Source: Sandaracinus amylolyticus
Lineage (GTDB): Bacteria > Myxococcota_A > Polyangia > Polyangiales > Sandaracinaceae
NCBI RefSeq assembly: GCF_021631985.1
Contig: NZ_CP070225.1
Coordinates: forward strand, 9,300,001 to 9,364,000
Direction of reading: 5' to 3'
Length of the DNA: 64,000 nucleotides
Shown here in pieces: positions 25,074 through 35,932 of the stretch; the first letter of the stretch is position 1; each line of letters starts with the position of its first letter. The notes below the pieces were generated by a model. The model was not told where the DNA came from, ran no database searches, and was given only the letters and a program-made list of their open reading frames with translations. The translations under genes and the position numbers were made by a program.

Positions 25074-26951
25074 TCAGCGCGTCGTGACGCTCATCGACCA
25101 GCGATCGAGCGTGCCCACGTCGTTGCGCGCACCGTCGACCACGGTGAGGCGCCACGTGCCGGTCACGCTCTCGCCGACGAAGCCCTCGACCGCGAACGTG
25201 CGCTCGAAGCTGCCCGCGTCGATCGACGCCTCGCGCAGCAGCACGAACTCACGACCGCCGACGCGCGAGAGGCGCACCGTGAGGTCCATCGGGAACTCGT
25301 GCGTGATGCCGACCGTCACGCTCATGCGCGAGATCGTCCCGGCGTCGCTCACCACGATGTCGCTGGTCACGCCCGCGGTGCTGTCGTCGGGGATCGCCGC
25401 GCTCGGCGTCGCCGAGTGCTCGCGCGTCTGCTCGGTGCCGCCGCAGCTCGCGCCCTCGCAGCGCGTGATCGCGAGGCTCCACGAATTCAGCGTGCCCGCG
25501 TCGGCGTTCGCGGTGTCGACCACCACGAGGCGCCACGTGCCCGCCGCATCGACGCCGTTGAAGTCGGCGACGCTGAACGTCTGCTGCACGTGGTCGTCCG
25601 CGCCGCCCGCACGATCGAGCAGCGTGACCACGCGGCCGTCGCGCTCGAGGCGCACCTGCAGATCGCCGCGGTACGGGTGCGCGATGTCGACGGTCACCGC
25701 GAGGGAGCTGATCGCGCCCGCCTCGGCCACCACGATCTCGCTGCTCACGCCCGCCGGGGTGTTGTCGGGGATCGCGACCATCGGCGTCGCGCTGTGCGTC
25801 GTCTCGCTCGTGCTGTCCATGCACGCACGATCGCTCGCGCAGTCGCTGTCCTCGCAGTCGATCGCGCCGTCGCGATCGTCGTCGCTCGTGTTGTTGCAGG
25901 TCTCGGGAGGCAGGCGGACCGTGGGCAGCGCGCTCACGTACGCGGTGAGGTACTGCTCGACGTAGCGGAACGAGATCCAGCCGTAGCCGTCGGGCTGAGT
26001 GCCCTCGGTGCCGAAGCGCGTGGCGCCCCACGAGTTCTTGAACATGAAGAAGCCGCGCTCCATCACCGGGCGGCCCATCGCGTCGACGACCGGATTGCCC
26101 TCGCCGTCGAGGCGCTGCACTTCCATCTCCGAGTCCCAGCCGACCAGCAGGAACGCGTGACCGGCGGGGCGCATGCGCGAGTCCGCGATGTCCGCGTCGT
26201 TCGGCGACATCACGATGCCGCGGCGCGAGTTCTCGCCGTTCGTCGGCAGCATCGAGCCGCCGTGGTTCCACGCCTGGTAGAAGAAGTCGCCGCCGACCAC
26301 GACCGGCGTGCGCTTGGTGACCATGTGGCCCTGGAGGCTGCGCGCCGTGCTGCGGATCCAACGACCTGCGGGCAGGTGGAAGCGCATGCCCTCGCGCGCG
26401 GCGGCGGGCGGCTCGCCGTTGGTCCAGCAGCGCACGGGACGGCCCTCACCGGTGCACGCGGGGTCCTGCGTGGTGCTCCAGCCGCGCGACTCGTAGGGCC
26501 AGAGGCTCTCTTCCACGATGCCGAAGCGGTTGATCGCCTCGAGGTTGCGCTGCGCGCTCGAGCCGTCGGTGTTGGTGAACGCGCCGACCTCGGTCTTCAC
26601 CGACCACTGCAGGTACTGCTCGCTGAAGTCGGGGCTCGTGATCGTGCCCTCGCTGATGTAGAGCGACTCCATCAGCGCCGCGGTCGCGAAGATCGAGCAC
26701 ACGCCGCGGCTGCCCTGGTTGCGCACCGGCGTCTGCGTCTCGAGCAGATCGAAGCGCGCGGGATAGACCTCGTCGGCCTTGCTCTCGTCGGGCAGCTCGG
26801 CGTTCGGCGGGACGCCGTCGACGAGGGGCGAGAGCTCGGAGACCGGCGCCTCGTCGAAGGTGAGCGGGAGGTCGTCGTCGGGGCTGTTCGCGCAGCCGGC
26901 GAGCGCGACCAGCGACGCGAGGAGGAATGGGCGGCGATTCGTGAGCGACAT
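25074..26951 (-). CDS. Papain-family (C1A) cysteine protease lipoprotein with two P/Homo B domains
   Basis: 625 residues. Lipoprotein signal (LLASLVALAGC). The catalytic domain has the papain Gln and Cys in TPVRNQGSRGVCSIFATAAL, the His in GHAFLLVGWD and the Asn in FKNSWG. The C-terminal ~270 residues hold two tandem proprotein-convertase P-domains, each starting HSATP-x-AIPD and containing VTVxIxHxxxxDLxVRL and GTWRLxVVD. A Cys/Asp-rich linker (CNNTSDDDRDGAIDCEDSDC) joins them. It is probably a surface or secreted protease for predation or scavenging. P-domains stabilise and target such enzymes. Divergent from the PH-like membrane protein. Confidence 0.88.
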   Translation of the reverse strand: MSLTNRRPFLLASLVALAGCANSPDDDLPLTFDEAPVSELSPLVDGVPPNAELPDESKADEVYPARFDLLETQTPVRNQGSRGVCSIFATAALMESLYISEGTITSPDFSEQYLQWSVKTEVGAFTNTDGSSAQRNLEAINRFGIVEESLWPYESRGWSTTQDPACTGEGRPVRCWTNGEPPAAAREGMRFHLPAGRWIRSTARSLQGHMVTKRTPVVVGGDFFYQAWNHGGSMLPTNGENSRRGIVMSPNDADIADSRMRPAGHAFLLVGWDSEMEVQRLDGEGNPVVDAMGRPVMERGFFMFKNSWGATRFGTEGTQPDGYGWISFRYVEQYLTAYVSALPTVRLPPETCNNTSDDDRDGAIDCEDSDCASDRACMDSTSETTHSATPMVAIPDNTPAGVSSEIVVAEAGAISSLAVTVDIAHPYRGDLQVRLERDGRVVTLLDRAGGADDHVQQTFSVADFNGVDAAGTWRLVVVDTANADAGTLNSWSLAITRCEGASCGGTEQTREHSATPSAAIPDDSTAGVTSDIVVSDAGTISRMSVTVGITHEFPMDLTVRLSRVGGREFVLLREASIDAGSFERTFAVEGFVGESVTGTWRLTVVDGARNDVGTLDRWSMSVTTR

Positions 26952-27104
26952 GCGAGGCGGCCGATTACAGATCCCGTGCCGCATGTGGGATAGACGAATT
27001 GCCGAAGAAAATCGTGGTGACGCGGCGCGTCGAGGCTGGGGTCGGGCGTCGCCACACCCCAGCCCACCTGGCGTCTGGGGAAGCCATGGCGAGGGCTTCG
27101 TGCT

Positions 27105-28367
27105 GTGATTCGGCGCGTGGTGAGCCCCCTGCCTCCCTCGCGGCTGACGAGCCCACGCAAGCCGGCGTCGTGGACACCCGTCGTTGCCTTCTTGATCGCG
27201 TCCGGATTGCTCGCGCTGGTAGCACCGTCCTGGTGGCCCGCTTGGGTCGTGATGGCGGTGACGCCGATCCTGATCGCGTCGTGGACCGAGCACGCGCGAT
27301 GGATCGAGATCGATCGCGGAGGCGTGCGCTACGCGACGTTCTTCGGCGCGCGGTTCATCGCGTGGGACGCGATCGCGTCGATCGAGCGCGCCCGCGCGAG
27401 GCGGCTCGTCGTCCTCCGATCGCGCGCGCGCCGGGGCTCGCTGCTCGAGCTGAACGTCGAGCTCTACGGGGCGCGCCTCTTCGACGTGCTGCGCGAGAAC
27501 GCGCCGGTCGGCGTGTACCAGCTGCGCGCGGACGACGAGCGCGCGCTCGTATCGGGCGTGCGCTCGCAGGATCGCGAGCGGGCGCGCGCGCGGGTCATGA
27601 TGAAGCGCGAGCCGCGCGCGTCGTATCGCGGCATCGAGCGCGCGCGCTCGACCTTCTCGCTGCGGAGGCCGTTCGGGCCCGAGCGCCGCGCGTTCCGTCG
27701 CGCGTTCGTCGTGTCGATGGGCTTCGGCCTCTCGACGATGTACGTGGCGTGGCTGATCACGACCGCGCAGCTCGCGCTCGCGATGCTGGTGCTGCTCGGC
27801 GCGATCGCGCTCGCTGCGTTCCTGCTGAGTCGTTTCCTCGGCATCGCGATCGGCCTGCGTGCGCTGCGCCGGAGGCTGATCGATCGCCTCGGCCCCGAGG
27901 TCGAGCTCGATCCCCGGGGGATGCTGATCTCGCGCGATCGCCGCACCCGCGTGCGACAGCTCCCGAGCGATCTCGACGATCGCCTGATCGGTCTGCACCT
28001 GCACGTCGAGACGCTCGGCGACGACGGGCTGATCGAGAGCTCGGCGATCGTGCTCGGCCTCGATCTCGGCCTGCCCGCGGATGCGCGTCCGTGGACGCTG
28101 CGCGAGACCGCGCGCGTGCGTGGCCACGCGCTCTCGTCGCTCGACGACGACACCTGGCCCGTCGAGCCGCGCCTCCTGCGCACCGATCGGCGACCCCTCG
28201 CGACGCTCGTGATCGAGCATGGCCCCGACGGCGCGATCCTCAGTCGGTTCGGCGGCGGCGAGCGCCCGCTCGGCGACACGTTCCACGAGGACGCCGACGC
28301 GGCGCGACGCCAGGCCGCGCACGAGACCGAGCACTTCGAGTGGCACGACACGATGGAGGGGAGATGA
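27105..28367 (+). CDS. Membrane protein with PH-like segment, function unknown
   Basis: 420 residues, GTG start. Two hydrophobic segments near the N-terminus (VVAFLIASGLLALVAPSWWP, VVMAVTPILIASW) precede a PH-like strand pattern (WIEIDRGGVRYATFFGARFIAWDAIASIE). A second hydrophobic pair lies near residues 205-250 (VSMGFGLSTMYVAWLITTA, LALAMLVLLGAIALAAFLL). The C-terminal ~130 residues are charged and soluble. The layout recalls bacterial PH-domain membrane proteins with duplicated modules. Its stop overlaps the next tiny ORF by ATGA. Confidence 0.65.
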   Translation: MIRRVVSPLPPSRLTSPRKPASWTPVVAFLIASGLLALVAPSWWPAWVVMAVTPILIASWTEHARWIEIDRGGVRYATFFGARFIAWDAIASIERARARRLVVLRSRARRGSLLELNVELYGARLFDVLRENAPVGVYQLRADDERALVSGVRSQDRERARARVMMKREPRASYRGIERARSTFSLRRPFGPERRAFRRAFVVSMGFGLSTMYVAWLITTAQLALAMLVLLGAIALAAFLLSRFLGIAIGLRALRRRLIDRLGPEVELDPRGMLISRDRRTRVRQLPSDLDDRLIGLHLHVETLGDDGLIESSAIVLGLDLGLPADARPWTLRETARVRGHALSSLDDDTWPVEPRLLRTDRRPLATLVIEHGPDGAILSRFGGGERPLGDTFHEDADAARRQAAHETEHFEWHDTMEGR

Positions 28368-28438
28368 GGGGCGCGCTCTTGCTCGCGGTCGCGCTCGTCT
28401 GTTGGGCGGGGCAATCGGGATCGGACACCACGTCTTGA
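28364..28438 (+). pseudogene. Truncated signal-peptide gene stub at island edge
   Basis: Starts with ATG overlapping the previous stop (ATGA), as an operon gene would, and encodes MRGALLLAVALVCWAG, a good signal peptide core, then stops after 24 codons. Just past it the base composition drops. I read it as the 5' end of an operon gene cut by an insertion near 28410-28440. Confidence 0.45.
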
Positions 28439-28490
28439 CCGCCGCTATGTTCTCCTCGCCCTAATGCCGGGTACTCTTGGGTAGACTGCG

Positions 28491-29456
28491 ATGGTGGTTC
28501 ACCACAGGCATCTAATCTTGCGCGATGTCGGAAGGCCGGAGCCGCACCCGCTAGATTGCGACTGGCGATTTACCCCAGACACCACGCAGATGCTCGCCCA
28601 CCGGCTGCATCGCACGAGGTGTGTACTGGCTGGCGCGCCCACCGTTGCAGCGGCTCTCGTCGAGCAAGGAGACGCAGTCACGCTTGTTGAGCGGCAGCCT
28701 GGGCTCGCGCTCCCGCAGGCAACCGTCGACATCGAAGTAGCACCGGCGACCGGCGAGACCTTTGAAGCCGCATTCGCCGATCCGCCCTGGTACCCGACAG
28801 AGTACGAGCGCTGGATCACGTGGGTCGCGCAGCACATCCCGCGTGGAGGAAGGATCTACGCGTCGCTCTGGCCCGAAGACACGAGGCCGTCTGCAGCTGC
28901 GGAGAGGCACACGTTGCTTTCCGCTCTAGCCCGGTGGGCGACGGTTCGAGTCGATGCAGCGCAGCTTGAGTATCAAGTCCCTCCGTTCGAGAAGGTTGCG
29001 AGGAGTCTGCAGCTCATAGAGGACGCGGATCGACCGTGGCGGCGCGGAGACCTAGTCGAGTTGGTAGTAGAGGAACGACCGTCGCTCGCGCCACCGCTCG
29101 TCCGACGCGAAGCGTGGCGGCGTTTCGTTTGGAACGAGTATCAGCTCGCACTGCGTGTGCGGCCCGCGCAGCCTGGCCCCTTCTCGATCGCTCCGGTGCC
29201 CGGGGCCCGGTCCTGGCGATGGCCGTCTGTCAGCCGGCGCGCGCCGAACCGAGATCGCATCGACCTTTGGAGTTCGCGCAACGAGGTCGCCGTGATCATG
29301 GGTGCTGCGGATGTGGGGGACGCGCTCGCTGCGTTCTCAGATTCGTCCGGCACCAACACGGCAATGCTGCCAGCCGGTCTGGCCGCGGTCTTACACGACT
29401 GGGAACTCCCACGACCACCATTCACACGGGTACTACAGTGGACTCACCTCGCCTAG
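28491..29456 (+). CDS. Methyltransferase-like protein with DPPW motif (island gene 1)
   Basis: 321 residues. A glycine-rich segment CVLAGAPTVAAALVEQGDAV (44-63) ending in an acidic strand LVERQP looks like SAM-binding motif I. DPPW at 97-100 (FADPPWYPTEYERW) is the catalytic motif of N6-adenine and related methyltransferases. The C-terminal half is less conserved. I recognise the fold but not the target; a DNA, RNA or nucleotide target is possible. Base composition and codon use differ from flanking genes. Overlaps the downstream phosphoesterase by 19 bp, so the two are co-translated. Confidence 0.7.
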   Translation: MVVHHRHLILRDVGRPEPHPLDCDWRFTPDTTQMLAHRLHRTRCVLAGAPTVAAALVEQGDAVTLVERQPGLALPQATVDIEVAPATGETFEAAFADPPWYPTEYERWITWVAQHIPRGGRIYASLWPEDTRPSAAAERHTLLSALARWATVRVDAAQLEYQVPPFEKVARSLQLIEDADRPWRRGDLVELVVEERPSLAPPLVRREAWRRFVWNEYQLALRVRPAQPGPFSIAPVPGARSWRWPSVSRRAPNRDRIDLWSSRNEVAVIMGAADVGDALAAFSDSSGTNTAMLPAGLAAVLHDWELPRPPFTRVLQWTHLA

Positions 29457-30904
29457 TGCTTCGGTTTCGTGACTCGACCCCCGGCGTCGACACGATCGTG
29501 GAGCACCGCAAGCTGATCGACAACCAGGGAGCCGTCTGGTGGGGCTGGTGGCGGAAGAACTTCGAGCCAGAGCACACCGGTCTGTTCGAGCGGCTGGAGA
29601 ACGGTGGTAGTGGGCGCATCCTGATCGTTGATCGCGCGACCAGCAGGGCGTTCCGCGCGCGCTTTCTTCAAGTTCGCACGTCGTCATCAACGGTGGATGA
29701 TGTGCGCGTGCCGGCATACTACCGATCGCAGAAAGATCGAGTCGCCGCCTGGTTTCTGCTGGCGTCCATTGAGGACACTCCATTCGACCGAGAGCTGGGA
29801 GAACGACTCGGCGAGACAACACTGCTTCCGCTCGACGTGTCTGAAGCCAGCGCTACGCCGAGCACGCGTGTGAGCTTGCGGCCGCGAAGTTTGGGCCGCT
29901 CGCATATTCTGCACCTTTCGGATCTCCACTTCGGCGCGGACTATGCGTTTCTTCCACGCGGAGAGACGTCGGGTATCGGCGACCTTCGACGTACTCTCAC
30001 GAACTGCATCGTGGAGGATCTGAGTCGTCTGAATCGCAGAAACGATATCGGTCTCGTTATCGTGACCGGCGACTTTACGACACGCGGTGACTGGACCGAC
30101 AAGACTCGCGGCCAAATTCTCAGCGAGATGGCTGATCTTCTCAATGCCCTGGGGCTGCAGAAAGAAGATCTCATCGCGCTCCCCGGAAACCACGACATCG
30201 TACGCTATCGAGACGGGGCCACGGTCGACGTCGCCAAGATGGCAGTGTCGAGCCAGACCGACTCTCAGCACGAACGCGAGTTCCGGATGTTCCTCCAGCT
30301 ACTGACGGGGCGAGATATCCAGAATCCGCTGAACTACAGCCAGACGTCGATTCTCTCCGGCATCGCAGTTACCGTTTGTGCGTTGAACTCGTGCTCGATT
30401 ACCAGCACGCAATGGACCGAGTACGGATACGTCGGTACGGGCGGCTTAGACGCTCTGAGCGTCGATCCTCCGCACGCAACTGACATCGTGGCCACTCTTA
30501 AGATAATGGCACTCCACCATCATCTTCTTCCGGTCGCGGCCGTCGAAGCGCCGCGTGCGAATGGTGTTTCGCTCACCCTGAATGCGGTCGAGCTTCTGGA
30601 CAAAGCACTCGAGACCGGCGTTCAGCTCGTGATCCACGGACATCAGCATCAGGCGCGTGTATCGTCCTATGGGGTCCTTCCGATGGGCGATACGCCCGCA
30701 CGCGAGCCGCTCGTGATCGTATCGGGTGGCAGTTCGGGAGCCGCGGCTCCGCGTCTTCCCGGCGCTGAGCGCAACACGTACTCACTAATCGGCCTCGACA
30801 CCAAGGGCGTGCATCTGTGGATCCGTGAACTGCGCCCGGACGCCAAGCCGGGCGCGACGCTTTTCAATGCACCGGTGCCGCTAGTACCGGGACGAGCGAC
30901 CTGA
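29438..30904 (+). CDS. Metallophosphoesterase with N-terminal Trp-rich domain (island gene 2)
   Basis: 488 residues from a GTG start. Residues 1-150 carry a Trp-rich motif (LIDNQGAVWWGWWRK, 27-41) and read like an EVE/PUA-type or related substrate-recognition domain, uncertain. Residues ~155-440 are a calcineurin-like phosphoesterase: LSDLHFG (DxH, 162-164), VTGDF (GD, 211-212), PGNHD (250-253), HHH (360-362) and GHQHQ (401-405) supply all metal ligands. Such enzymes cut phosphodiesters or phosphoesters. Unlike neighbours it uses A/T-ending codons and even a TTA codon (near 30447). It is translationally linked to the DPPW gene, and both lie in one low-GC island. Confidence 0.82.
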   Translation: MDSPRLVLRFRDSTPGVDTIVEHRKLIDNQGAVWWGWWRKNFEPEHTGLFERLENGGSGRILIVDRATSRAFRARFLQVRTSSSTVDDVRVPAYYRSQKDRVAAWFLLASIEDTPFDRELGERLGETTLLPLDVSEASATPSTRVSLRPRSLGRSHILHLSDLHFGADYAFLPRGETSGIGDLRRTLTNCIVEDLSRLNRRNDIGLVIVTGDFTTRGDWTDKTRGQILSEMADLLNALGLQKEDLIALPGNHDIVRYRDGATVDVAKMAVSSQTDSQHEREFRMFLQLLTGRDIQNPLNYSQTSILSGIAVTVCALNSCSITSTQWTEYGYVGTGGLDALSVDPPHATDIVATLKIMALHHHLLPVAAVEAPRANGVSLTLNAVELLDKALETGVQLVIHGHQHQARVSSYGVLPMGDTPAREPLVIVSGGSSGAAAPRLPGAERNTYSLIGLDTKGVHLWIRELRPDAKPGATLFNAPVPLVPGRAT

Positions 30905-30958
30905 GGCGGGCGGATCCGTTCACCGCCGCGGCCGGGACGCCGAGTTCCGACGCAACCC

Positions 30959-32980
30959 TCACGCGACGCGGCGATCCACGTCCACGTCGACCGCGCCTTC
31001 GCCGGTCGCGCTCGCCTGCTCCGCGCTCATCTTCGCGCGCAGCGCCTCGCCGCGCGTCGCCCACCACGCGCGCGCCGCGTCGTCGCCGAACGCCACCACG
31101 CCTTGCAGCGCGTCGAGCGCCTCGATCAACGCCCGCGCGCTCGCGAGCCGACGGGCGCGATCCTTCTCGAGCAGGCGCATCACCAGCGCCTCGAGCTCCG
31201 CCGGCACTGCGCGCCCGAGGCGCTGGCTCGGCGGCTCCACCTCGGCGCGCAGCTGCATCGTCGCCACGGCGAGCGGCGTCTCGCCGACGAAGGGCGGCGT
31301 GCCGGTCAGCAGGTGATACGCGAGCGCGCCCACCGAGTAGAGGTCCGCGCGCGCGTCGATGCGAGCGGGCGCGCTGATCTGCTCGGGCGCCATGTACACC
31401 GGCGTGCCGATCATCGTGCCCTCGTGCGAGAACGCCGCGCCCTCGGTGAGCTCGCCGCTCACGACCTTTCCGAGCCCGAAGTCGAGCACCTTCACCGCGT
31501 CGGGCGTGCCCGCGCGCATCGCGAGCATCACGTTCGCGGGCTTCACGTCGCGGTGCACGATGCCGAGCCCGTGCGCCTCGTCGAGCGCCTCCGCGATCGC
31601 GCGCACGATGCGCACCACGCGCCCCGCGGGCAGCGCGCCCTCTTCGCGCACCACGACGTCGAGCGGCAGTCCGTCGACGTGCTCCATCGCGTAGTAGAGC
31701 TCGCCGCCGGGCGTGCGGCCGTAGTCCCAGACCTGCACCGTGTTCGGGTGCACCAGGCGCGACGCCAGCTGCACCTCGCGCTCGAAGCGCGCCGCGCGCT
31801 CGCGATCCGCGCCCCGCAGGATCTTGATCGCGGTGGGCCTCCGCATCATCGCGTGCCGCGCGAGATAGACCACGCCGGTGCCGCCCTCGCCGAGCTTGCG
31901 CTCGAGCACGTAACGACCGAGCCGCCGGGCGCTGCGCACCTCGTCCTCGAGCGCGCGGATGCGCGCGATGCCGCTCGCCGCCCACGCGAGCAGCGCGCTC
32001 AGCAGCAGCCCCACGACGAGCACCACCAGCGGCTCGGTGCGCGCGCCGCCGAACCCCGCGCCCGGCCGCGCGATCAATCGGAAGCTCCGCTCCGCGAAGG
32101 GGATCTCCACCTCGCGCGAGAACGCGGTCGTCTCGCCCGCGACGCCGGGCGCGGTCTCGTAGAGCACCCGCAGATCGTCGGGCGCGTCGGGATCGATCAG
32201 CGCGAGCTCGACGTGCTCGCGCACCACCGGCGCGACCAGCGGATCGAGCAAGGGGCGCAGTCGGAAGAGCGCGATCGCGAGCCCCGTCGCGCGCGCATCG
32301 CGCTCGGTGCTCGCCCCGGGGCGCACGCCGCGTTCGTACATCGCGAGGTACACCGCGAGCGAGAACACGCCCTCGGGATCTTCGACCAGCCGAAGACGGC
32401 GCGAGCCCACCGGCTCTCCGAGCTCGCGCGCCTGCTCCACGCTCGCACGGCGCACCGGCTCGCTCAGCAGGTCGTAGCCGAACGCGATGCCCTCGGACGG
32501 CTCGGCGTAGCGCAGCGGCGCGTAGATCGCGTCGCGGGCGCGCGGCACCATCGCGCCGTCGGGCGCGACCTCGGTGATCGGGAAGCCCGCGGTGGCCTCG
32601 AACGCCTCGCGATCGACGTCGCGCACGAAGGGCGCCCACTCGAGCGCGGCGATCCCCTGGTGTCGCGCCAGCGCATCGCGCACGAACACCGTGAACGCGT
32701 CGCGGCTCGGCACCTCCTCGCTCGCCGCGAAGAACGCGGGCACCGAGCGCAGCACCTCGAGCGGCCGCCCGAGCTCGTCGCGCAGGGTGTCGGCGAGACG
32801 ATCCGCGCGCTCCGCGAGCTGCTCGCGATCGTGCTGCTGCGCGCGCTCGTAGGAGAGCGCGGTCGCCGCGATCGTGAGCACCACGCCGAACGCCAGCACC
32901 ACCAGCGCGTCGCGCTGCAGCAGCGGATGCGCCGCGATGCGCCCGACCCACGCCGGGCGCGTCTGCGAGCGCTCGCTCAG
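30959..32980 (-). CDS. CHASE-domain Ser/Thr protein kinase
   Basis: 673 residues. N-terminal membrane helix (ALVVLAFGVVLTIAATAL), a periplasmic CHASE domain (IAALEWAPFVRDVDREAFEA then FPITE), a second helix (PLVVLVVGLLLSALLAWAA), then a cytoplasmic kinase domain: GEGGTGVVYLA, catalytic loop HRDVKPANVM, DFGLGKV and YMAPEQ. It senses an extracellular ligand, perhaps a small molecule. No ATG, GTG or TTG fits; a CTG at 32980 overlaps the upstream kinase stop as CTGA, parallel to ATGA overlaps elsewhere, so CTG is a likely start. The upstream partner is a second kinase. Confidence 0.85.
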   Translation of the reverse strand: MSERSQTRPAWVGRIAAHPLLQRDALVVLAFGVVLTIAATALSYERAQQHDREQLAERADRLADTLRDELGRPLEVLRSVPAFFAASEEVPSRDAFTVFVRDALARHQGIAALEWAPFVRDVDREAFEATAGFPITEVAPDGAMVPRARDAIYAPLRYAEPSEGIAFGYDLLSEPVRRASVEQARELGEPVGSRRLRLVEDPEGVFSLAVYLAMYERGVRPGASTERDARATGLAIALFRLRPLLDPLVAPVVREHVELALIDPDAPDDLRVLYETAPGVAGETTAFSREVEIPFAERSFRLIARPGAGFGGARTEPLVVLVVGLLLSALLAWAASGIARIRALEDEVRSARRLGRYVLERKLGEGGTGVVYLARHAMMRRPTAIKILRGADRERAARFEREVQLASRLVHPNTVQVWDYGRTPGGELYYAMEHVDGLPLDVVVREEGALPAGRVVRIVRAIAEALDEAHGLGIVHRDVKPANVMLAMRAGTPDAVKVLDFGLGKVVSGELTEGAAFSHEGTMIGTPVYMAPEQISAPARIDARADLYSVGALAYHLLTGTPPFVGETPLAVATMQLRAEVEPPSQRLGRAVPAELEALVMRLLEKDRARRLASARALIEALDALQGVVAFGDDAARAWWATRGEALRAKMSAEQASATGEGAVDVDVDRRVA

Positions 32981-34131
32981 GGATCGCCTCCGAGCACCAC
33001 GTACGCGACGAAGATCGCGAGCGCCCCGAGCATCGCGATCGCCATCGCGATCAAGGTCCGCCTCGAGGACGCGGGGCGATCGACGTCGCCGCCGAACACC
33101 TCGCCGGCATCCTCGGGCAGCTCGTGGGGCGTCGCGGGCGGCGGCTCGCTCGGGATGGTCTTCTTCGACTCTTCGTCGCGCCCGCGTTGCGGTCGGATCT
33201 GCGGCATGCGCGCGCTGCCGATCACGAACCCGCACGACGTGCCTTCGGGCACGGTCCTCGACGCGGCCTCGAGCGCCTCGCGCATCGAGCGCGCGTCGGG
33301 CCAGCGATCGTCGGGCTGCTTCGCGAGCGCGCGCGCCACCACCGCGCTCACCTCGCGGCCGATCGCGGGCACGCGCTCGTCGAGCGGCTCGGGGTCGTCG
33401 GCCGACACCGCGAGCAGGATCTCGCCCACGTTCGCGCCCTCGAAGGGCGCGCGTCCCGCGAGCGTCTCGTAGAGGATCGCGCCGACGCTGAAGATGTCCG
33501 CGCGATGATCGACGTGGTGCGCGTTCGTGCCCTGCTCCGGCGCCATGTACACCGGCGTGCCCAGCATCTCGCCGCTGCGGGTGAGCGAGTCCCACTGCGC
33601 GGCGCGCCCCTTCGGCGGCGCCGCGGTCATGCGCGAGATCCCGAAGTCGAGCAGCTTCACGCGCGTGCGCCCGTCGCGCCCGTTCGCGAGATAGAGATTG
33701 TCGGGCTTCAGATCGCGATGGACGATCCCCGCGGCGTGCACCGCCTCGAGCCCGGCGAGCGCGTCGACGATCCATCCGATCGCCTCGTGCGCCATCGGCG
33801 GCGGCGGTCGCTCGATCCTCCATCCGAGGCTCTCGCCCTCGAGCAGCTCGAGCACGAGGTAGGGCTCGTTCTCGTCGGTGGTGCCGTGGCCGAGCACCGA
33901 GACGACGTTGGGATGACGCACCGACTCGCACGCGATCGCCTCGCGCGAGAAGCGCTCCTCGAACGATGCGAGGCCGCGCACGTGCTTCGCCATCAGCTTC
34001 ACCGCGACGTCCTCGCCGCCCTGCCGATCGCGCGCGCGCCAGACGGTGCCCATGCCGCCGCCGCCCACCGGCGCGACGAGCTCCCAGCGATCGCCGAGCA
34101 CCGATCCGATCCCCGCCACGTCCGCGAGCAT
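32977..34131 (-). CDS. Ser/Thr protein kinase, tail-anchored
   Basis: 384 residues from the ATG at 34131. Kinase core: Gly-rich loop GGGGMGTVWRARD, VAVKLMAKH (Lys), catalytic loop HRDLKPDNLYL, DFGISRM and YMAPEQ. After residue ~300 comes a Pro/Glu linker and a single C-terminal membrane helix (LIAMAIAMLGALAIFVAYVVL) with almost nothing outside. It is a cytoplasm-facing tail-anchored kinase, possibly phosphorylated by or acting on the co-translated CHASE kinase. Eukaryote-like kinases of this type are abundant in myxobacteria. Confidence 0.9.
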   Translation of the reverse strand: MLADVAGIGSVLGDRWELVAPVGGGGMGTVWRARDRQGGEDVAVKLMAKHVRGLASFEERFSREAIACESVRHPNVVSVLGHGTTDENEPYLVLELLEGESLGWRIERPPPPMAHEAIGWIVDALAGLEAVHAAGIVHRDLKPDNLYLANGRDGRTRVKLLDFGISRMTAAPPKGRAAQWDSLTRSGEMLGTPVYMAPEQGTNAHHVDHRADIFSVGAILYETLAGRAPFEGANVGEILLAVSADDPEPLDERVPAIGREVSAVVARALAKQPDDRWPDARSMREALEAASRTVPEGTSCGFVIGSARMPQIRPQRGRDEESKKTIPSEPPPATPHELPEDAGEVFGGDVDRPASSRRTLIAMAIAMLGALAIFVAYVVLGGDP

Positions 34132-34288
34132 AGGTCGAGCACCGCCTCGCGGGCGAGCGCCGCTTGCTGGGCTCTCCAGACCCCGGATCGGAGCACGCGG
34201 TGCGCCGCGGAACATGCTCTGCTCCACGGATCACACGAAGATCCGGGGTGTTCCGTCCCGGTACGACCGGTGCAGAGGTGCGCCGACC

Positions 34289-35932
34289 ATGCGCCTCTCT
34301 CGACTTCGCGCGACGCTGCTGGTGACTGCCGGCCTCCTCGCGCTCGGTGCGTGCGTCGGCGACCTCGGAGACTCGCGCGGTGTCGGTCCCGGTGGTGGCT
34401 GGAACGGCGGACCGGATCCCATCCCCACGACCACGCAGCCAGTGCAGGCCGCGATGCGCCGTCTGACCGCGGTGCAGTACGACGCGACCATGCGCTCGCT
34501 CTTCGGCGACGACGCCCAGGTCGACGTCGAGCTCGAGGCCGATACCCCGGTGAACGGCTTCGTCGCGATCGGCAGCGCGCGCACCACGATTTCGCCGCGC
34601 GCGGCCGAGCTCTACGAGTCCGCGGCGCTCCGCATCGCGGAGAGCGAGCTGACCGACGCCGCGCGTCGCGGGGACCTCGTGCCCTGCACGCCGGGCGGCA
34701 CCGTCGACACCTCGTGCGCGCGCGAGTTCATCGAGTCGTTCGGTCGCCGGGCGTGGCGCCGCCCGCTCGCGGTCGACGAGGTCACTCGATACGTCGCGAT
34801 CGCCGATCAGTCGGCGACGGTGCTCGGCGACTTCTACCAGGGCCTCGCGATGGCGACCGCGGGCCTGCTCCAGTCGCCGAACTTCCTCTTCCGCGTGGAG
34901 ATCGGCGAAGAGGCCGACGGGCGCCGCCGCTACTCGAGCGTGGAGATGGCGTCGCGCCTCTCCTATCTGATCTGGAACGCGCCGCCCGACGAGGAGCTGC
35001 TCGCGGCCGGTGAGCGCGGCGACCTCGTCGACCCCGAGATCCTGCGCGCGCAGGCCGAGCGCCTGGTCGCCGAGGAGCGCAGCCGCGGCGCGCTGCGCGA
35101 CTTCTTCGCCGAGCTGCTGCGCCTCGAGGGCCTCGATCGCCTGCCTCAGGACCCCGACGAGTTCCCCGCGATGAGCGCGACGATCGGCGCGGCGATGCGC
35201 GAGTCGACGCTGCGCACCATCGAGGATCACCTGCTGGTCGAGGGCGGCAGCTACCGCGACCTCTTCACCACGCGCACCACGTTCGTGAACGCCGAGCTCG
35301 CCGGGCTCTACGGCGTCGAGGCGCCGGCCGAAGGATGGGCGCGCGTCGAGCTGCCCGATGGTCCGCGCGCCGGTCTGCTCGGCCAGGCGTCGGTGCTCGC
35401 GCTCTTCTCCCACAGCCACGCGTCGTCGCCGACGCTGCGCGGCAAGTTCGTGCGCGAGACGCTGCTCTGCCAGTCGATCCCGCCGCCGCCCGCCGACGTC
35501 GGCGAGCTGCCCGAGCCCAGCCCCGAGCTGCCGACGATGCGCGAGCGCCTCCAGGAGCACCGCGCGAACCCGGCGTGCGCGAGCTGCCACTCGATCACCG
35601 ACCCGATCGGCCTCGCGCTCGAGAACTTCGACGCGATCGGCAGCTTCCGCGAGCAGGAGAACGGCGCGACGATCGATCCGAGCGGCGAGCTCGACGGCAC
35701 CGCGTTCGCCGACGCGCGCGAGCTCGGACAGGCGATGGCCTCGCACCCGCAGCTCACCGCGTGCCTGGTGCGCAACCTCTACCGCTACGGCACGGGGCAC
35801 GTGGAGACGCGCGGCGAGGAGCCGACGATCCGCGACCTGGCCGATGCGTTCGCCGGCGAGCCCGAGCTGGGCGCGCTGATGGTCGAGCTCGTGACGAGCG
35901 ATGGATTCCGTTTCGCAGGGAGCCCGGACTGA
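34289..35932 (+). CDS. DUF1592/DUF1588/DUF1585 family secreted protein
   Basis: 547 residues. Signal peptide with lipobox (LLALGAC). Domain order follows the family: DUF1587-like start (MRRLTAVQYDATMRSLFGDD), DUF1595, DUF1592 (LLQSPNFLFRVEIGEEADG), DUF1588 (LRGKFVRETLLCQSIPPPP) and DUF1585 near the C-terminus. A CASCH motif (CxxCH) in DUF1588 may bind heme. These proteins travel with DUF1552 partners and are predicted surface or periplasmic complexes of unknown role. The DUF1552 gene follows within 2 bp. Confidence 0.88.
   Translation: MRLSRLRATLLVTAGLLALGACVGDLGDSRGVGPGGGWNGGPDPIPTTTQPVQAAMRRLTAVQYDATMRSLFGDDAQVDVELEADTPVNGFVAIGSARTTISPRAAELYESAALRIAESELTDAARRGDLVPCTPGGTVDTSCAREFIESFGRRAWRRPLAVDEVTRYVAIADQSATVLGDFYQGLAMATAGLLQSPNFLFRVEIGEEADGRRRYSSVEMASRLSYLIWNAPPDEELLAAGERGDLVDPEILRAQAERLVAEERSRGALRDFFAELLRLEGLDRLPQDPDEFPAMSATIGAAMRESTLRTIEDHLLVEGGSYRDLFTTRTTFVNAELAGLYGVEAPAEGWARVELPDGPRAGLLGQASVLALFSHSHASSPTLRGKFVRETLLCQSIPPPPADVGELPEPSPELPTMRERLQEHRANPACASCHSITDPIGLALENFDAIGSFREQENGATIDPSGELDGTAFADARELGQAMASHPQLTACLVRNLYRYGTGHVETRGEEPTIRDLADAFAGEPELGALMVELVTSDGFRFAGSPD

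Follow-up and report, generated by a model that had tools for sequence, protein, structure and literature searches.

A predicted anti-phage gene pair in Sandaracinus amylolyticus: a DS-9-like phosphoesterase with a DPPW methyltransferase-like partner

A low-GC two-gene island in Sandaracinus amylolyticus is, in our judgement, likely to be a horizontally acquired DS-9-type cassette, predicted to act against phage, with a DPPW methyltransferase-like partner in place of the HAD phosphatase of DS-9. We favour this reading because the two overlapping genes travel and diverge together, the site is empty in a sister genome, the distribution is sporadic and tied to mobile elements, the pair has defence neighbours elsewhere, and the phosphoesterase has an intact active site and is homologous to DS-9A. 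An earlier note on this DNA had proposed a mobile defence cassette, and the empty collinear site, the sporadic occurrence, the carriage on plasmids, prophage and satellite, the defence neighbours and the homology to a validated protein support that prediction. DS-9 consists of a metallophosphatase and a HAD phosphatase and is among the 42 systems that the DefensePredictor study validated in E. coli; protection of E. coli needs the catalytic residues of the metallophosphatase, and the system was reported without a known substrate for either enzyme (PMC13092281). The two genes, P0001 (DPPW protein) and P0002 (phosphoesterase), lie in a window of 64,000 nucleotides, the whole stretch of DNA analysed here, at 9.30-9.36 Mb of the 10.96-Mb genome.

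Table 1. Features of the island and loci that carry the gene pair
Feature	Position in window	Strand	Basis or carrier
Acquired island, 2,553 bp (432 bp in the sister genome G001)	28398..30950		blastn of window against G001
Lipoprotein-like gene remnant, 24 codons then TGA; longer in G001	28364..28438	+	G001 alignment
P0001, DPPW protein, 321 aa, class I SAM-methyltransferase-like fold (model)	28491..29456	+	translation, homologues, VIA Z
DPPWY motif of P0001, residues 97-101, motif IV of amino-methyltransferases	28779..28793	+	alignment A7
P0001/P0002 overlap, exactly 19 bp	29438..29456	+	same length in 9/10 loci
P0002, PUA-like plus metallophosphoesterase, 488 aa, DS-9A-type, GTG start	29438..30904	+	NF053862, PF24405, PF00149
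PUA-like domain of P0002, PF24405, residues 6-117	29453..29788	+	1e-23, 84.4 bits, cut-off 27
WWGWW motif of PUA-like domain	29537..29551	+	W35-G36-W37-W38 invariant in alignments A1, A4, A6
Calcineurin-like phosphoesterase domain, all dimetal-site motifs	29903..30652	+	PF00149, 1.3e-13
Pair locus L018			Acetobacteraceae MAG
Pair locus L019			Rhodospirillales MAG
Pair locus L020			Loktanella plasmid
Pair locus L021			Agrobacterium plasmid
Pair locus L022			Sinorhizobium plasmid
Pair locus L023			Rhizobium plasmid
Pair locus L031			prophage-type contig, adjoins tail and endolysin genes
Pair locus L033			P4-like satellite contig
Pair locus L035			gut-phage contig

Results

Composition and insertion site of the island

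At 28.4-30.9 kb the GC content is about 62%, against about 72% around it. Measured in 500-bp windows, it averages 0.622 (minimum 0.574) within the island and 0.720 (sd 0.026, minimum 0.656) outside. The step is sharp on the right, at about 30.9 kb, and softer on the left, at about 28.4 kb, where GC goes from 0.71 to 0.65; the lowest values occur near 30.0-30.5 kb, inside P0002. GC3 is 0.70 in P0001 and 0.69 in P0002 versus 0.91-0.94 in four neighbour genes, and the pair contains nine CTA and two TTA codons, of which the four neighbours have none. The compositional step, the deviant codon use and the 19-bp gene overlap described in the earlier note were all recovered, the last exactly.

A hypothetical gene flanks the pair on one side and protein kinase genes, identified as such by eye, on the other. 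We recognised no other defence genes beside it in the window and saw no integrase or transposase near the island. A search for flanking repeats or transposon ends gave only short matches of low identity, and a scan of the island start for sigma-70 promoters and terminators yielded nothing useful.

A one-contig sister genome of the same genus, G001, is collinear with the window at positions 25074-28397 and 30951-34306 (86-88% identity), and blastn finds no match between these two blocks. The G001 sequence at the island site is the rest of a lipoprotein-like ORF of about 143 aa. The remnant in the window, ATGAGGGGCGCGCTCTTGCTCGCG, aligns with the start of the G001 gene, ATGAGGCGCGCGCTCCTGCTCGCG, and the island stands in place of the 3' part. 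Since the window keeps the first two dozen or so codons and then continues into the island, the simplest reading of the alignment is that acquisition of the island broke the lipoprotein-like gene.

Homologues of P0001 were found in none of 56 other relatives, and a profile of the P0001 family had no match among a further 378 phylum genomes. We rejected a housekeeping or metabolic operon, because the pair is missing from the collinear G001 site and P0001 from both of these sets of genomes.

Recurrence of the pair

A search for paired homologues returned nine loci besides the window, on mobile or phage-type carriers and in two MAGs (Table 1). The one locus among the ten that departs from the 19-bp overlap has an overlap of 1 bp, and the GC content of the pair lies below that of its own locus in all ten. 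Moreover, the distance matrices of the P0001-type and P0002-type proteins correlate (Mantel r 0.93, p 0.0001, n=10). Since homologues elsewhere keep gene order and overlap, the arrangement is, judged by these loci, more than chance, and the earlier view of the two genes as one unit is strengthened by the order, the overlap kept in nine of ten and the co-divergence of the proteins. Single-sequence scans of viral contigs gave no further close relatives, and the pair of the P4-like satellite was not found at the DNA level in complete E. coli genomes. We found no paper on the combination of DPPW protein and phosphoesterase among the open-access papers searched.

The phosphoesterase tree splits DPPW-partnered from HAD-partnered proteins (support 100/98; branches long), and three loci from the window's own phylum (L058, L059 and L060) combine a PUA-phosphoesterase with a HAD partner, which in these sequences indicates that partner identity tracks the phosphoesterase clade. 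At L060:4152-6856, from the window's class, the HAD gene stands before the phosphoesterase gene, the reverse of the DS-9 order, and the PUA-like reading frame looks interrupted.

Defence neighbourhood and mobile carriers

The Agrobacterium pair has as neighbours the Gabija genes GajA (2.6e-203) and GajB (8e-181) and an AbiEii-type candidate, the Loktanella pair CARF_STK_AAA and NaeI-type restriction-modification, and the Rhizobium pair RdrA/RdrB-like (RADAR-like) genes. Co-occurrence with defence islands, a point raised by the earlier note, is thus seen at loci elsewhere. A DS-9 on an IncHI1B plasmid (L029; phosphoesterase at 573 bits, then HAD), adjoins Hachiman. Two overlapping genes on plasmids and prophages, and a window copy that stands alone on its chromosome, would also suit a pair of the toxin-antitoxin type or one for selfish maintenance, or passive mobile-element cargo; we nevertheless consider such a non-defence role improbable, given the homology to a validated defence protein and the repeated siting beside known defence systems.

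Two further observations concern the carriers. A HAD-type DS-9 is present in another P4-like satellite, where it adjoins the satellite integrase (L032:7986-10467); P4-like satellites have a known hotspot of antiviral systems, and the paper of Rousset on this hotspot mentions HAD and no phosphoesterase (PMC9122126). All three Rhizobiaceae loci (L021:12217-14500, L022:6389-8688 and L023:6601-8900) have, no more than about 3 kb from the pair, a gene of about 230 aa and a gene for a 533-aa protein whose C-terminal region is adenylosuccinate-synthetase/PurZ-like; this is a possible further defence candidate.

P0001, the DPPW protein

The structural model of P0001 (mean pLDDT 70) has a Rossmann-like class I methyltransferase core, in line with the SAM-type fold with DPPW of the earlier note, the four residues being 97-100. 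Residues D97, P99, W100 and Y101 are invariant across 15 homologues. The sole change of the motif among the 15 is DSPWY for DPPWY in the prophage homologue (L031:742-1674). Further conserved blocks of the family are P-H-P-L-D-x-x-W-R, Y-x-x-P-x-F-E and V-S-x-R, and motif I, at the expected strand end, is GxP(S/T)xA versus GxGxG. P0001 has no family match in Pfam, NCBIfam or PHROGs; residues 80-147 weakly match the PADLOC model mad2 (E 6.6e-5). Against the PDB, the sequence alone gave no match and the profile only chance-level matches. The homologue from the gut-phage contig passes the cut-off of the Pfam model N6-adenineMlase (26.1 vs 23.2). Based on the class I fold, the DPPWY motif and this score, we regard P0001 as a probable SAM-dependent amino-methyltransferase. 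Its use of SAM is not certain, because Pfam and NCBIfam give no match and motif I reads GxP(S/T), not GxGxG.

Comparison with VIA covered residues ~16-250 and placed BpsA first (Z 17.4), ahead of METTL5 (Z 14.2). Together with long-form homologues whose N-terminal extension is wHTH-like by appearance, this top match could suggest a BpsA-like activity for the DPPW protein, which would then transfer aminopropyl rather than methyl groups and attach a polyamine group to nucleic acid or some other target. The GDDD motif is indispensable in BpsA (PMC12979288) and is replaced by GxP(S/T)x in the P0001 family, and the P0001 profile retrieves none of the BpsA sequences from the PDB; we therefore hold an aminopropyl transferase to be very improbable.

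P0002, the phosphoesterase

The description of P0002 as a calcineurin phosphoesterase with a Trp-rich N-terminal domain agrees with its PF00149 domain and with the stretch GAVWWGWWRK at residues 31-40. Its dimetal-site motifs are D162xH164, G211D212, G250N251H252D253, HHH at 360-362 and G401HxH404, and all are invariant in comparison with the DS-9A relative of the E. coli plasmid (L029). The best NCBIfam match, which runs along the protein, is NF053862 (DS9_1_antiphage; E 1.1e-111) with 374 bits, below the equivalog cut-off of 420 bits. The DPPW-partnered homologue from Loktanella reaches 443.8 bits and thus exceeds this cut-off. Identity of P0002 to the enterobacterial (E. coli plasmid) DS-9-type protein is about 23%.

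In the model (mean pLDDT 71), the fold of the catalytic domain resembles YydB, Lmo2642, purple acid phosphatases, GpdQ, Rv0805 and SMPDL3A (Z ~18-23), and scores lower with Mre11 (Z ~16) than with these phosphodiesterases and phosphatases; the VIA-align comparison covered residues 144-488, and the identity of the PUA-like domain rests on PF24405. A search of the PDB with the P0002 sequence alone gave no match, and the phosphoesterase profile found Lmo2642.

Related gene arrangements

Relatives of the parts of this pair occur in other combinations. A conserved seven-gene cluster (L024:3223-9059, L025:3178-9118, L026, L027, L028 and L048:5927-11793) is carried by cyanobacterial and alphaproteobacterial plasmids and by one genome. 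Its first genes encode a small PDC-M63A-like protein, an XRE regulator with an M78 peptidase-like (XRE/ImmA-type) domain and DUF4186; the remaining genes encode a radical SAM protein, a long-form DPPW protein (a distant homologue with the N-terminal extension), an ASCH protein and a P-loop kinase. This DPPW-ASCH-kinase cluster is possibly an undescribed system. At L063:1888-3727 (minus strand), a stand-alone PUA-like gene (PF24405) is followed by genes for a P-loop nucleotide-kinase-like protein and for a HAD phosphatase akin to that of DS-9; DS-9-like parts are seen here in a third arrangement. At L061:5129-7171, the stop of a PUA-like gene overlaps with the start of a gene for an adenine-specific DNA methyltransferase, and the product of the next ORF, with an EIKFS stretch, might be a nuclease.

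The seven-gene cluster and the L063 arrangement suggest, though they do not prove, that PUA-type readers occur together with interchangeable enzymes that either handle phosphate or act as transferases. Taken further, there could be a modular family of defence cassettes with a shared reader of the PUA superfamily (PF24405 or ASCH), an idea that we put forward as speculative and rather doubtful. We would say the same of the list of partners exchanged in it, namely calcineurin phosphoesterase, HAD phosphatase, P-loop kinase and DPPW transferase. If such a family were real, the window pair would be its write-and-hydrolyse version, in which the reader domain checks the mark made by the DPPW protein, and would stand for a form of immunity that relies on modification and does without a classical restriction enzyme.

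The recurring combinations (phosphoesterase with HAD, phosphoesterase with DPPW, PUA with kinase and HAD, DPPW with ASCH and kinase) might also recall, by analogy with Pnkp/Hen1, the processing or repair of RNA or DNA ends broken during infection. The kinases, however, match AAA_17/AAA_18 and not polynucleotide kinase, with weak matches to cytidylate, adenylate and dephospho-CoA kinase models, and we recognised no ligase next to the pairs; we give end repair a low probability.

Discussion

Proposed mechanism

For the mechanism of the pair we tentatively favour a write-and-read scheme, to which we assign somewhat less than an even chance. Since DS-9A cannot defend without its catalytic residues, P0002 would be the effector, acting as a metal-dependent phosphodiesterase or nuclease. 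Its PUA-like domain would read a feature of a base or nucleotide, and P0001, as a SAM-dependent amino-methyltransferase, would mark the same class of target. Marked host nucleic acid or nucleotide would then be spared, and phage-altered or unmarked target would be hydrolysed by P0002. Domains of the PUA/ASCH type are chiefly known for recognising modified bases in nucleic acids. The presence of such a domain, the coupling of a stand-alone PUA-like gene to an adenine DNA methyltransferase gene at L061 and the DPPWY motif, which suggests a planar base bearing an amino group, are our reasons for favouring the scheme; the phosphodiesterase-like fold scores of P0002 count against it, as does DS-9, in which there is no methyltransferase. 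The earlier proposal of modification plus nuclease or hydrolysis is kept here as a hypothesis.

The main rival to write-and-read, likewise within the cassette claim, is the processing of a small nucleotide or second messenger. The phosphoesterase would hydrolyse a nucleotide that the HAD or DPPW partner makes, modifies or traps, and nucleotides of the cell would be depleted or a phage signal removed. The fold scores, higher for cyclic-nucleotide and SMPDL3A-like phosphodiesterases than for Mre11, argue for this alternative, as do the pairing of the same type of phosphoesterase with a HAD phosphatase in DS-9 and the relatives that join P-loop nucleotide kinases and HAD enzymes to a PUA-like or ASCH domain (L063, L024-L028, L048). 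HAD effectors of type III CRISPR systems, moreover, deplete ATP (PMC12715507). The same three features that speak for write-and-read, namely the PUA-type domain, the coupling of a PUA-like protein to an adenine DNA methyltransferase at L061 and the DPPWY motif, speak against nucleotide processing, which we rate as possible but on the unlikely side.

Comparison with known systems

The likeness to MADS is confined to the weak mad2 match, which covers only the surroundings of the DPPW motif of P0001; there is no multi-gene mad locus at the island, whose flanking genes are collinear with G001, which lacks the pair. With BpsA/METTL5-type transferases, P0001 shares the Rossmann core and a DPP/NPP-type motif at the level of fold, but there is no sequence-level match, GDDD is absent and motif I is GxP(S/T). 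As in restriction-modification systems, a methyltransferase-like protein with a DPP-aromatic motif lies beside a hydrolase; this hydrolase, however, is a calcineurin-like phosphoesterase (PF24405 plus PF00149) and has no recognised endonuclease domain, and PADLOC reports no restriction-modification nuclease at the pair. A restriction-modification reading is further weakened because HAD-partnered DS-9 works without a methyltransferase. DS-8 (metallophosphatase-NACHT, PMC13092281) has a homologous metallophosphatase domain but is a single protein with NACHT, in place of which P0002 has the PUA-like domain, and P0002 scores only 21 bits to DS-8.

The closest known system is DS-9. Both are two-gene units with a PUA-like domain and the same metallophosphoesterase active-site motifs, and mobile and defence-island settings are common to both. 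They differ in the second enzyme and in gene order, since the HAD phosphatase gene of DS-9 follows the phosphoesterase gene whereas the DPPW gene of the window precedes it, and in length, P0002 having 488 aa versus about 549 aa in DS-9. No homologue of the DS-9 HAD adjoins P0002, and tblastn gave only chance-level matches elsewhere in the window. On these sequences we do not grant the window pair membership of DS-9, because the HAD partner is missing and the score lies under the curated DS9_1 cut-off. The earlier statement that no named system has this pair holds for the DPPW partner, which is unnamed, and not for the phosphoesterase half, which is a relative of DS-9A. In altered form, a system validated in E. 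coli thus extends to the window's phylum, to Alphaproteobacteria, to a P4-like satellite and to a gut-phage contig, and, for the question of the DS-9 substrate, traits common to the HAD and DPPW partners limit the possible targets of the phosphoesterase.
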